A stretch of 64,000 nucleotides of DNA from Zeus faber (Eukaryota > Chordata > Actinopteri > Zeiformes > Zeidae), in NCBI GenBank assembly GCA_960531495.1, contig OY482846.1, positions 52,553,945 to 52,617,944 on the forward strand, written 5' to 3'. Positions 8,901 to 53,900 of this stretch are shown in pieces. Below the pieces are notes generated by a model. That model saw only the letters and a list, made by a program, of their open reading frames with translations, searched no databases and was not told where the DNA came from. Numbering within the stretch: position 1 is the first letter of the stretch; the number at the start of each line of letters is the position of its first letter. The translations under genes were made by a program, and so were the position numbers.

Positions 8901-11900
8901 TGCACGCTGGACCTGCACGGTACTGCAAGCGGGACCTGCAATGTACTGCAAGCGAGACCTGCATGGTACTGAAAGCTGGACCTGCACGGTACTGCAAGCG
9001 AGACCTGCACGGTACTGTAAGCTGGACCTGCACGGTACTGCAAGCGAGACCTTCACGGTACTGAAAGCTGGACCTGCACGGTACTGCGGGACCTGCAATG
9101 TACTGCAAGCGAGACCTGCACGGTACTGAAAGCTGGACCTGCACGGTACTGCAAGCGGGACCTGCACGGTACTGCAAGCAGGACCTGCACGGTACTGTAA
9201 GCTGGACCTGCACGGTACTGCAAGCGGGACCTGCAAGGTACTGCAAGCGAGACCTTCACGGTACTGAAAGCTGGACCTGCACGGTAGTGCATGCAGGACA
9301 GGCATGGTACTGCAAGCGAGACCTGCACGGTACTGTACGCTGGACCTGCACGGTACTGCAAGCGGGACCTGCACGGTACTGCAAGTGGGACCTGCACGGT
9401 ACTGCAAGCGGGACATGCACGGTACTGCAAGTGAGACCTGCACGGTACTGCAAGCGAGACCTGCACGGTACTGAAAGCTGGACCTGCACGGTACTGTAAG
9501 CGGGACCTGCACGGTACTGAGAGTGGGACCTGCACGGTACTGCAAGCGGGACATGCACGGTACTGCAAGTGAGACCTGCACGGTACTGCAAGCTGGACCT
9601 ACACAGTACTGCAAGCAGGACCTGCACGGTACTGCAAGCTGGACCTGCACGGTACTGCAAGCGGGACATGCACGGTACTGCAAGCTGGACCTACACGGTA
9701 CTGCAAGCAGGACCTGCATGGTACTGTAAGCTGGACCTGCACGGTACTGCAAGCAGGACCTGCACGGTACTGCAAGCAGGACCTGCACGGTACTGTAAGC
9801 TGGACCTGCACGGTACTGCAAGCGGGACCTGCAAGGTACTGCAAGCGAGACCTTCACGGTACTGAAAGCTGGACCTTCATGGTAGTGCATGCAGGACAGG
9901 CATGGTACTGCAAGCGAGACCTGCACGGTACTGCACGCTGGACCTGCACGGTACTGCAAGCGGGACCTGCAATGTACTGCAAGCGAGACCTGCATGGTAC
10001 TGAAAGCTGGACCTGCACGGTACTGCAAGCGAGACCTGCACGGTACTGCAAGTGGGACCTGCACGGTACTGGTACAGGTAACCAGTGCTGCTCATCGAGC
10101 TCCACTGGTTACCTGTAGCCGCCCGCATCAAGTTCAAGTCTCTGATGCTGGCCTACAGAGTGATTGCTGGGAATGCTCCCGCCTACTTAAATGCTCTTGT
10201 AAGAGCACATGTTGCCCCCCGGATGCTGCGCTCGTCAAATGAGCGTTGCCTGGCTCTGCCGGCCATACAGCCACGGCAATCCAGGCTATTCTCATTTGTA
10301 GTTCCACGTTGGTGGAACGAGCTGCCAAAAATCTGTTCTGTCTTTAAGAAGCACTTGAAGACCCAGCTCTTCAGTGAGTACCTCCTGTCCTAACCTACAA
10401 TTACTTAGCACCACCTTGCAGTATTTATTGTTACACTAATGTTGTTGTTACACTTATCTCTGTCGCAATGTAGCTTGAATGTTATTCTCCCTTGTAAGTC
10501 GCTTTGGATAAAAGCGTCTGCTAAATGACTAAATGTACTGCAAGCGGGACATGCACGGTACTGCAAGTGAGACCTGCACGGTACTGCAAGCTGGACCTAC
10601 ACGGTACTGCAAGCAGGACCTGCACGGTACTGTAAGCTGGACCTGCACGGTACTGCAAGCAGGACCTGCATGGTACTGTAAGCTGGACCTGCACGGTACT
10701 GCAAGCGGGACCTGCAAGGTACTGCAAGCGAGACCTTCACGGTACTGAAAGCTGGACCTGCACGGTACTGCAAGCGGGACCTGCAATGTACTGGAAGCGA
10801 GACCTGCACGGTACTGAAAGCTGGACCTGCACGGTACTGCAAGCGGGACCTGCACGGTACTGCAAGCGGGACCTGCGCGGTACTGCAAGCTGGACCTGCA
10901 CGGTACTGCAAGCGGGACATGCACGGTACTGCAAGCGGGACCTGCAAGGTACTGCAAGCGAGACCTTCACGGTACTGAAAGCTGGACCTGCACGGTACTG
11001 CAAGCGGGACCTGCAATGTACTGGAAGCGAGACCTGCACGGTACTGAAAGCTGGACCTGCACGGTACTGCAAGCGGGACCTGCACGGTACTGCAAGCGGG
11101 ACCTGCGCGGTACTGCAAGCTGGACCTGCACGGTACTGCAAGCGGGACATGCACGGTACTGCAAGCTGGACCTGCAAGGTACTGCAAGCGAGACCTTCAC
11201 GGTACTGAAAGCTGGACCTGCACGGTACTGCAAGCGGGACCTGCAATGTACTGGAAGCGAGACCTGCACGGTACTGAAAGCTGGACCTGCACGGTACTGC
11301 AAGCGGGACCTGCACGGTACTGCAAGCGGGACCTGCGCGGTACTGCAAGCTGGACCTGCACGGTACTGCAAGCGGGACATGCACGGTACTGCAAGCTGGA
11401 CCTGCAGTGGGAGCTATGGGTCTGTGTACTCCTTCCATCCCTGCATCGCTCCATCCATCCCTCCAGCTCTCAGTCACTCCGTCCCTCTATTACTCCATCC
11501 CTCCATCCATCCCTCATTCACTCCATCCCAATATTACTCCATCCATCCCTCACTCACTCCATCCTCTATGACTCCATCCCTCTATCACTCTATCCCTTCA
11601 TCACTTCATCCCTCTATCACGCCATCCCTCACTCACTCCATCCTGGTGGGATCAGTCAATCCATCCCTCCATGTTTCCTGCTTTTTGTGGTTCTCCAGGT
11701 TCTGGGAAGTCCTACACCATGATAGGTTCTGTAATGTTCTGGTTATGGTTCCCCAGGTTCTGGGAAGTCCTACACCATGATGGGTTCTGAGGAGCAGCCG
11801 GGCCTGATCCCTCGGGTCTGCAGGGCTCTGTTTGAGCGGACGCTGCAGGAGGCCGTGGAGGGCGAGAGCTTCACGGTGGAGGTCTCCTACCTGGAGATCT

Positions 11901-50900: not shown

Positions 50901-53900
50901 CACATTACACACTTGTACACACTTGTAGACACTATACACACTGTACAGTAGTACACACAGCAAACACAGTACACACTAGTACACACTGCACACACTAGTA
51001 TGCACTAGTACACACAGTACACACTGTACACACAGTACACACTGTAAACACTGTTCACACTAGTACACACAATACACACTTGTACACACTCTTCACACTA
51101 GTACACACTGTACACACTAGCACACACAAGTACACACTGTGCACACTAGTACACACAGTACACACTTGTACACACTAGTGCATACTAGTGAACACTATAC
51201 ACACTAGTACACACGGTACACACAATACACACTTGTACACACTAGTTCACACTAGTACACACTGTACACACTAGTACACACTAGTAAACACTAGTACACA
51301 CAGTACACACTAGTACACACAGTACACAATAGTACACACTGCACACACTAGTATGCACTAGTACACACAGTACACACTGTACACACAGTACAAACAGTAA
51401 ACACTGTACTGTAATACTGTGTGTGTGTACAGGAAGTAGCAGTAAAGGAGCAGATTTCAGTTAAAGGTCGTTCGTCCAGACACTGCAGTTCCCAGAGCCT
51501 CCAGTGGGTGAGGACCGCCCAACTACACTATGCTAACCTCCTCCCTGCTACGCTAACCTCCACCCTGCTATGCTAACCTCCACCTTGCTAAGCTAACCTC
51601 CATCCTGCTAAGCTAACCTCTACCCTGCTGAGCTAACCTCTACCCTGCGAAGATAACCTCTACCCTGCTAAGCTAACCTGAGGGCTGCCAAGCTAACCTC
51701 TGCCCTGCTACGCTAACCTCCACCTTGCTAAGCTAATCTCAACCGTGCTATGATCACCTCCACCTTGCTAAACTCACCTCCGCCCTGCTACGCTCTATAT
51801 GTAGATATGTCAATGGAAGACACATCCAAATCAGGAGGTTTCTTCTCCTCAGGGCTGGGAGAGCCTCCAGGACCCTGGAGTGTTTGCTGCAATCAGAACC
51901 TCCAACCAAAATCTCCACCCGAAGAAAGGTCAGAACCTCCACCCAAAGACAGGTCAGAACCTCAACCTACCCCGAGACAGGTCAGAAGCTTCATCCTGAG
52001 ACAGGTCAGAACCTCCACCCAGAACCTACACCTAAAGACAGGTCAGAACCTCCACCCAGAACCTCCACCCGACCTGTGACAGGTGAGAACTTCCACCTCA
52101 AACCTCCACCCAGAGACAGATGAGAACCTCCACCCTGAGACAGGTCAGAACCTCTACCCAGAACCTCTACCCAAAGACAGGTCAGAACCTCCATCCAGAG
52201 ACAGCTCAGAACCTCCACCTGGAACTTCCAGCCAAAGACAGGTCAGAACCTCCAACCAGAACCTCCACCCTCCCCAAGACAGGTCAGAACATTTACCCAA
52301 CAAGAGCCAGGTCAGAACCTCCACCCGAGACAGGTCAGAACCTCAAACCAGAACCTCCACCTCGAAACAGGTCAGAAATTCCACCCAGAACCTCTACCCG
52401 AGACAGGCTAGAACCTCCACCCTGAGACAGGTCAGAACCTCCACCCAGAATCTCCACACAGAGACAGCTCAGAACTGCCATCCAGAGACAGGTTGGAACC
52501 TCCAGCCAGAACCACTACCCGAAGACAGGTCAGAACCTCCACCCAGAACCTCCGCCCTCCCCAAGACAGGTCAGAACATCCACCCACCCAGAGCCAGGTC
52601 AGAATCTCCACCCAGAACCTCCAACCGAGACAGGTCAGAACCTCCACCTAGAACCTCCACCTGAAGACAGGTCAGAACCTCAGCCTAGAGACTGGTCGGA
52701 ACCTCCACCTAGAGACAGGTCAGAACCTCCACCCAGAACCTCCACCTGAAGAAATGTCAGAACCTCCACCCCGAGACAGGTCAGAAGCTTCACCTAGAGA
52801 CAGGTCAGAACCTCCACCCAGAACCTCCACCTACAGACAGATTAGAACCTATAGCCGAGGAAGGTCAGAACCTCCACCCAGAGACAGGTCAGAAGCGCCA
52901 CCCAGAGACAGGTCACAACCTCCACCCAGAACCTCCACCTAAAGACAGGTCAGAACCTCCACCCAGAACCTCCATCCGACCCATGACAGGTCAGAACCTC
53001 CACCCATAGACAGTTTAGAAACTACATTCAGAGACAGGTCAGAACCTTCACCCAGTACCTCCACCCCAAGACTTGTCGAAACCTCCACCCAGAACCTCAA
53101 CCCACCCCGAGACAGGTCTGAACCTCCAACTCTCTCTTAACGCCTCGCTCCTTCCATTTCAGGCTCTGCCTCCACCCTACTTTCTCCAGTGAAGTCGGCC
53201 TTTAAGTCCCTCCTCCAGGGTGGGAGAGAGGAGACACCCACCAATCAGCAGGTAGAGACCCGTCTGTCTGTCTGTCTACTTGTTTACCTTTCTACCTGTC
53301 TGCCTGATTTATTTGTCTTGTTGTTGTGTCCAGTCTGTTCCCCTCATCGTGGTCCAGTCAGTGGAGGAGAACATGGAGCTCCAGCTGCAGGTGGAGGGAT
53401 GGGTGGAGGGATGAAGGGATGAATGATGGATGGATGGATAGAGGAATGATGGATGGAGGGATAGAAGAATGGATAGATGGATGGGTGGAGAGATGGGTAT
53501 ATGGATGGGTGGGTGGAGGGATGGATGGTGAGAGGGTGAATCAATTTAACGCCCATGCCCCTCCACAGACACCCGTTGATGACATCATCACTCCTTACGT
53601 CCAATCAGAGAGCCCCAGGTCTATGCCCCTCCCCCCGCCCATCATACCTGAGTCGGAAGGCTTTGCCCCCAGCCCCGTGAGCGATGCCTCCAGCGGCTAC
53701 ATGTCCACCAGCGTTTCCACGGTGACGCTGTCGGACTTCTACACCCTGAGCTGGGACGGACCCCGGGTTGGGGATCCAGAAGGGGCGGAGCCAGAGCAGG
53801 AACCCTGTTCTCCATCAGGTTCTAAGCCACAGATCCGAGCGTTCACAGCAGACCCAGAACCGCCCGAGTTTCAACAGGAAGACCCACAGGAAGTGGACCA

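Follow-up and report, generated by a model that had tools for sequence, protein, structure and literature searches.

In a 64,000-nucleotide stretch of the genome of the fish Zeus faber (hereafter the window), a gene that we take to be kif13b harbours intronic tandem arrays whose units contain the edge of the adjacent exon together with its splice site. Junction-spanning copies were found in the adjoining intron at 8 of 73 exon-intron junctions, corresponding to five donors and three acceptors, and the exon 31 acceptor is a probable further case. These boundary arrays are real, independent of one another and striking. They look like the chance overlap of frequent and harmless duplications with exon edges, not like the product of a new process, and represent an unusually dense example of a kind of repeat that is already known.

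The window corresponds to bases 52,553,945-52,617,944 of a 52.95-Mb contig (OY482846.1) and lies 0.33-0.40 Mb off the contig end, in a genome of 803 Mb. The kif13b exons were located by tblastn with a kinesin protein as query followed by a reading of the splice signals, those past the FHA part being matched by eye to the query protein. Their numbering is that of a preliminary description of this DNA (exon 4 being 11757-11937). The names kif13b, hmbox1, kidins220 and sodium channel used below are our assignments from sequence resemblance, not from annotation.

A 30-base probe was placed over each of the 73 junctions and aligned to the adjoining intron (up to 1 kb). The eight positive junctions scored 60 (exon 8 acceptor), 55 (exon 16 donor), 50 (exon 33 donor), 48 (exon 5 donor and exon 4 acceptor), 44 (exon 6 acceptor), 40 (exon 25 donor) and 36 (exon 9 donor). 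Outside these, the top score was 30, for a match that does not span the junction, and the top spanning match was 21, at exon 31. Shuffled probes (eight per junction, maxima from 30 of the 73 junctions) peaked at 23. With scores of 36-60 against this level, the exon-edge matches do not vanish into the background of the alignment; the copies at the eight junctions are confirmed as genuine and chance similarity is excluded. The probes thus recovered all seven exons (4, 5, 6, 8, 9, 16 and 25) at which the preliminary description had reported copies of the exon edge and splice site. Exons 31 and 33 had been given there as probable. Exon 33 is now established, whereas exon 31 stays probable: its 30-base probe scored 21 versus 20 for its own shuffles, a 35-base probe scored 23 (reached by none of 500 shuffles; maximum 22), and a 51-base probe scored 38 over 44 columns against the 33-bp array (again none of 500 shuffles; maximum 20). 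The gene and its boundary arrays are as follows; unit lengths were obtained with Tandem Repeats Finder (TRF), that of exon 4 being the spacing of its two copies.

5974..55302, + strand: kif13b, 37 coding exons in one open frame, coding sequence ending with the stop codon at 55302; exon 1, with the start codon, was not located.
11699..11789, + strand: exon 4 acceptor, 58-bp unit in two copies; the upstream copy holds the acceptor and the first 33 exon bases (32/33 identical), the true exon start being 11757.
15136..15478, + strand: exon 5 donor, 37-bp unit, 9.2 copies, with 22 exonic bases and the donor.
16432..16572, + strand: exon 6 acceptor, 42-bp unit, 3.4 copies, with the acceptor and the first 7 exon bases.
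20635..21831, + strand: exon 8 acceptor, 51-bp unit, 23.3 copies, 97% matches.
23343..23607, + strand: exon 9 donor, 46-bp unit, 5.7 copies, with 26 exonic bases and the donor.
39487..39665, + strand: exon 16 donor, 56-bp unit, 3.2 copies; the last 55 exon bases recur at intron +2 to +56.
44657..45184, + strand: exon 25 donor, 48-bp unit, 10.5 copies; the exon tail recurs from intron +3.
50483..50690, + strand: probable case at the exon 31 acceptor, 33-bp unit; the final, diverged copy of the array continues in register over the acceptor and into the opening bases of the exon, whose true start is 50675.
51893..53140, + strand: exon 33 donor, 24-bp and 37-bp units, 38 matched decoy donors; exon-internal sequence recurs from intron +2.

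The units differ among junctions, so the arrays go back to separate events, affecting 5′ and 3′ splice sites alike. On both points our results agree with the preliminary description, as they do on the exonic part of the copies, which is shortest at exon 6 (7 bases) and longest at exon 16 (55 bases). Its unit lengths were likewise recovered, apart from that of exon 9, which had been put at about 60 bp and measures 46 bp. Since the protein sequence of exons 4, 5, 6, 8, 9, 16 and 25 recurs in a kif13 paralogue, the exon is the likely source of these copies.

Two kinds of copied piece can be distinguished. At exons 4, 5, 6, 8 and 9 it consists of intron plus exon edge. At exon 8, the 22 decoys and the true junction are all identical over 26 bases (10 intron and 16 exon), which makes this acceptor a natural experiment in how splice sites are chosen. 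The second kind occurs at exons 16, 25 and 33, where exon sequence resumes at intron position +2 or +3, so that the present donor is partly exon-derived. The exon 16 copy begins at +2, its donor GTGAGT therefore corresponding to exon bases after the first G; 47 of 55 columns are identical between exon tail and copy (counted by eye). This junction illustrates one route by which exon sequence adds to the length of an intron. The paralogue has GTAACT as donor at exon 16 and GTAACA at exon 25, which would fit a changed donor at the former and a kept donor at the latter.

Two further arrays touch a donor, at exon 10 (starting 1 base inside the exon) and at exon 28 (starting at the junction), and neither spans it in the probe test. 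The latter is a GTCT microsatellite (46355-46615) that begins exactly at the exon 28 donor, the functional donor thus being the first GTCT unit. Intron 10 has an array at either end (27031-30601 and 35078-35841), and the 11-bp unit GGTCTGTAACT (rotated) is common to both.

The boundary arrays lie in a gene filled with tandem repeats. Arrays make up 67-68% of the intron sequence of kif13b; those with a TRF score of at least 50 account for 66.8% of its 43,913 intron bases and 3.6% of its exon bases, and 69 array clusters lie over the gene. Measured outward from the exon, the closest array end is 0-40 bp away at 34 of 74 edges (0-20 bp at 22, 20-40 bp at 12), and many introns consist almost entirely of array, with short flanks at the splice sites. 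Of the window as a whole, 54.9% is array, compared with 0.7-23.6% of 14 interior ten-kb pieces (below 8% in 11 and below 12% in 12 of them) and 5.7-84.5% of six ten-kb pieces towards the end of contig 2; runs of N in 4 of these 20 pieces (3 interior, 1 on the end side) lower the array figures there. Array density near the end of contig 2 is therefore high, yet patchy, and values of 19-24% also occur among the interior pieces of that contig.

We compared the rate at which arrays span exon edges with that at control points, namely points in introns that either lie clear of any array or fall within its terminal unit. Such a de-expanded control was used because array growth inflates the present length of introns. 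For the same reason a naive placement null, in which units are distributed over the present intron length, was discarded: it gave 2.66 expected crossings (1.86 with 5 bases required on each side), which is too low. In the gapped test, 515 of 4941 (10.4%) and 516 of 5003 (10.3%) control points were spanned, versus 8 of 72 edges (P = 0.47). When all intron points were considered, more than half were spanned (3165/6033 and 3206/6019), so exon edges are less prone to arrays than the intron at large. In the ungapped test, 1,076 of 15,280 points were spanned, corresponding to 5.07 expected edges versus the 8 observed (P = 0.14). The rate at edges is thus close to the chance level for a gene with this many repeats; one post hoc excess remains and is weighed below.

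Two other array-rich genes were analysed in the same way. A partial sodium-channel gene, 106-146 kb off the end of another contig, has 14 recognised exons and 21.8% of its intron bases in arrays; none of its 27 edges was spanned, versus 0.33 expected from a control in which unrecognised exons (e.g. the linker) count as intron. A search for genes over five pieces (L009, L010, L011, L013 and L014) yielded kidins220 as the sole usable one. This kidins220-like gene, on the contig of the window, was represented by six exons (L009), with 81.2% of intron bases in arrays and 0 of 12 edges spanned versus 0.46 expected. Together, these two genes gave 0 of 39 edges for 0.79 expected, and all three genes 8 of 111 for 5.86 expected (P = 0.24). 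The idea, put forward in the preliminary description, that exon edges seed the arrays through a special junction process finds no support in these figures.

The kif13 paralogue, on contig 3, was sampled junction by junction over exons 3-10, whose boundaries correspond by eye to those of kif13b, and by TRF over exons 15-32; exons 11-14 lie outside the sample. At exons 3-10 none of 16 edges reached a score of 36, the top score being 24 (the exon 4 donor was placed one base short, which the test tolerates). In the exon 15-32 stretch, where only TRF was applied, 5.4% of the sequence is tandem repeat and no unit exceeds 15 bp. The boundary arrays are therefore absent from the examined parts of the paralogue. 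A weak 30-bp array at the paralogue exon 3 donor (L029:357-522), starting 3 bases inside the exon, scored 24 and was not counted.

The best explanation, which we regard as likely, is that frequent and mostly neutral tandem duplications in a repeat-rich region near a chromosome end happened to include exon edges. Whenever a junction is duplicated in tandem, the exon retains an intact one, and the additional splice sites come to lie deeper in the intron. Of the possible pairings, that of the nearest acceptor and donor gives the shortest exon. If splicing pairs these two over a short exon, as under exon definition, the decoys would be ignored, in which case junction duplications should be tolerated like any intronic duplication, become fixed neutrally and subsequently expand into minisatellites. 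For exons 16, 25 and 33, what was copied would have been mostly exon tail, with exon bases supplying a donor that was created or retained at the join, the extra exon copies thereby turning into intron. The 37 exons join as a single open frame through the arrays, in line with the earlier proposal that one functional edge is kept, and this frame is intact if the proximal splice sites are used. Use of the nearest decoy would produce a frameshift or an in-frame stop at six of the nine junctions: a stop precedes it at exons 4, 6, 8 and 16, and the frame is shifted at exons 5 (by 37 bp) and 9 (by 46 bp). Among matched decoys, AG or GT is kept in 22/22 at exon 8, 7/8 at exon 5, 32/38 at exon 33 and 0/9 at exon 25. 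This uneven retention indicates that decoys are not uniformly selected against.

Several observations weigh against neutral, haphazard inclusion of exon edges. When the crossing arrays are removed from the control, 706 of 14,627 points are spanned and 3.48 of 72 edges expected (P = 0.026). The excess resides in copies 30-70 bp off, found at six edges versus 1.80 or 0.81 expected (P = 0.010 or 0.0002), a class that was picked post hoc and for which, as for all these tests, the control points are correlated and the P values do not come from independent points; copies more than 70 bp off were observed once versus 2.56 expected. Decoys that are in frame and not preceded by a stop occur at exons 25, 31 and 33 (48, 99 and 24 bp out), so that some decoys may be non-silent, those matched at exon 25 being devoid of GT.

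The excess of 30-70 bp copies would be accounted for if exon edges were preferred sites for duplications of this size, for instance through microhomology of a donor or acceptor motif with exon-internal sequence, or through transcription-linked breaks, and the meeting of exon-internal sequence with the donor at exons 16, 25 and 33 points the same way. However, the gapped test places the total rate at background, the size class was chosen after the fact, and the 39 edges of the two other genes, where admittedly few cases were expected, provided none. We consider such a preference unlikely. The more specific proposal that junctions are favoured for 30-70 bp duplication in this genome because splice-motif-like stretches inside the exon pair with the real site, introns lengthening through exon-tail copies that rebuild the donor, is in our opinion also improbable.

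In-frame decoys raise the question of whether some take part in splicing, with alternative exon ends and variable protein length as the result. The best candidates would be exon 33, with its in-frame 24-bp unit, and exon 31, with its 33-bp unit, likewise in frame. At exon 33 most matched decoys keep GT and the first is in frame 24 bp out, yet the frame closes at +69; upstream of exon 31 the frame is open for 126 bp and includes one decoy acceptor, 99 bp out; and at exon 25 the matched decoys have all lost GT. Human exon-intron boundary repeats have been reported to change splicing (PMC2812944). For kif13b, use of decoys appears quite unlikely. Collapse or misjoining of repeats during assembly is highly improbable: such arrays are difficult to assemble and are judged here from the assembled sequence, but the window is without N, the gene stays in one frame through all arrays, and the copies differ mutually in most arrays, those of exon 8 hardly doing so.

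The preliminary description knew of no named class for such repeats. This was wrong, since minisatellite-like repeats that duplicate exon-intron boundaries in tandem go by the name of mirages in amphioxus, where they occur in Adh3 and in the globin genes BflGb6 and BflGb9 (PMC3087553). Mirages affect 5′ and 3′ boundaries and comprise many copies with AG/GT signals, and the data suggest that regular splicing is unaffected (PMC3087553). The kif13b arrays resemble them in that the repeat unit spans the boundary (at the eight junctions and probably at exon 31), in that both kinds of boundary are duplicated, and in that decoys keep AG/GT, albeit not all of them. They differ in occurring in a fish, with eight to nine independent cases in one gene, and are known from the sequence of one assembly. 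The kif13b arrays would thus carry the range of boundary minisatellites beyond lancelets and into a vertebrate. A search of the open-access literature under combined repeat and splice terms returned no title on boundary minisatellites in fish.

Related cases are found elsewhere. Tandem repeats containing splice sites, similar to the kif13b arrays, are described in lancelet PGBD5, in this case in one lancelet gene (PMC3902484). In human segmental-duplication genes, internal tandem repeats with units of about 30 bp are likewise minisatellites located at exon-intron boundaries; they differ from one paralogue to another and may give rise to new introns (PMC2812944). By contrast, kif13b shows no new intron relative to its paralogue at the seven of nine junctions compared (exons 4, 5, 6, 8 and 9, and the donors of exons 16 and 25; exons 31 and 33 lie outside the comparison). 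Intron gain through tandem genomic duplication of AGGT (PMC3443670) is reminiscent of kif13b exons 16, 25 and 33, in that duplicated exon sequence becomes intron and a donor is made or kept at the join; the difference is that in kif13b an existing intron would have grown at its 5′ end (exons 16 and 25), with no new intron. Finally, intronic repeat alleles of MSTN-2 and GH in sea bream, one MSTN-2 allele having an extra predicted acceptor, provide an example of intronic minisatellite variation in fish; in the excerpted text the repeat is not stated to span an exon edge (PMC3045353).

Other features were noted in the course of the analysis. On the minus strand at 56300-59000 lies a homeobox-like gene, read by eye only, which is probably hmbox1, a neighbour of kif13b. 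Dispersed elements resembling each other, probably short interspersed elements (by eye), occur at 4040-4240, 4310-4510, 13265-13450, 38480-38560 and 56690-56890; some carry GGTAGCTCAGG, GCGACTTACAATT or a similar sequence. A kinesin exon was seen at 52.126 Mb of contig 2 (inspected by eye and with TRF only). The sodium-channel gene seems to contain an AT-AC intron (ATGAGT...TTCTAC; joined pieces L031-L034, reverse, about 32862-35739), a known trait of sodium-channel genes.

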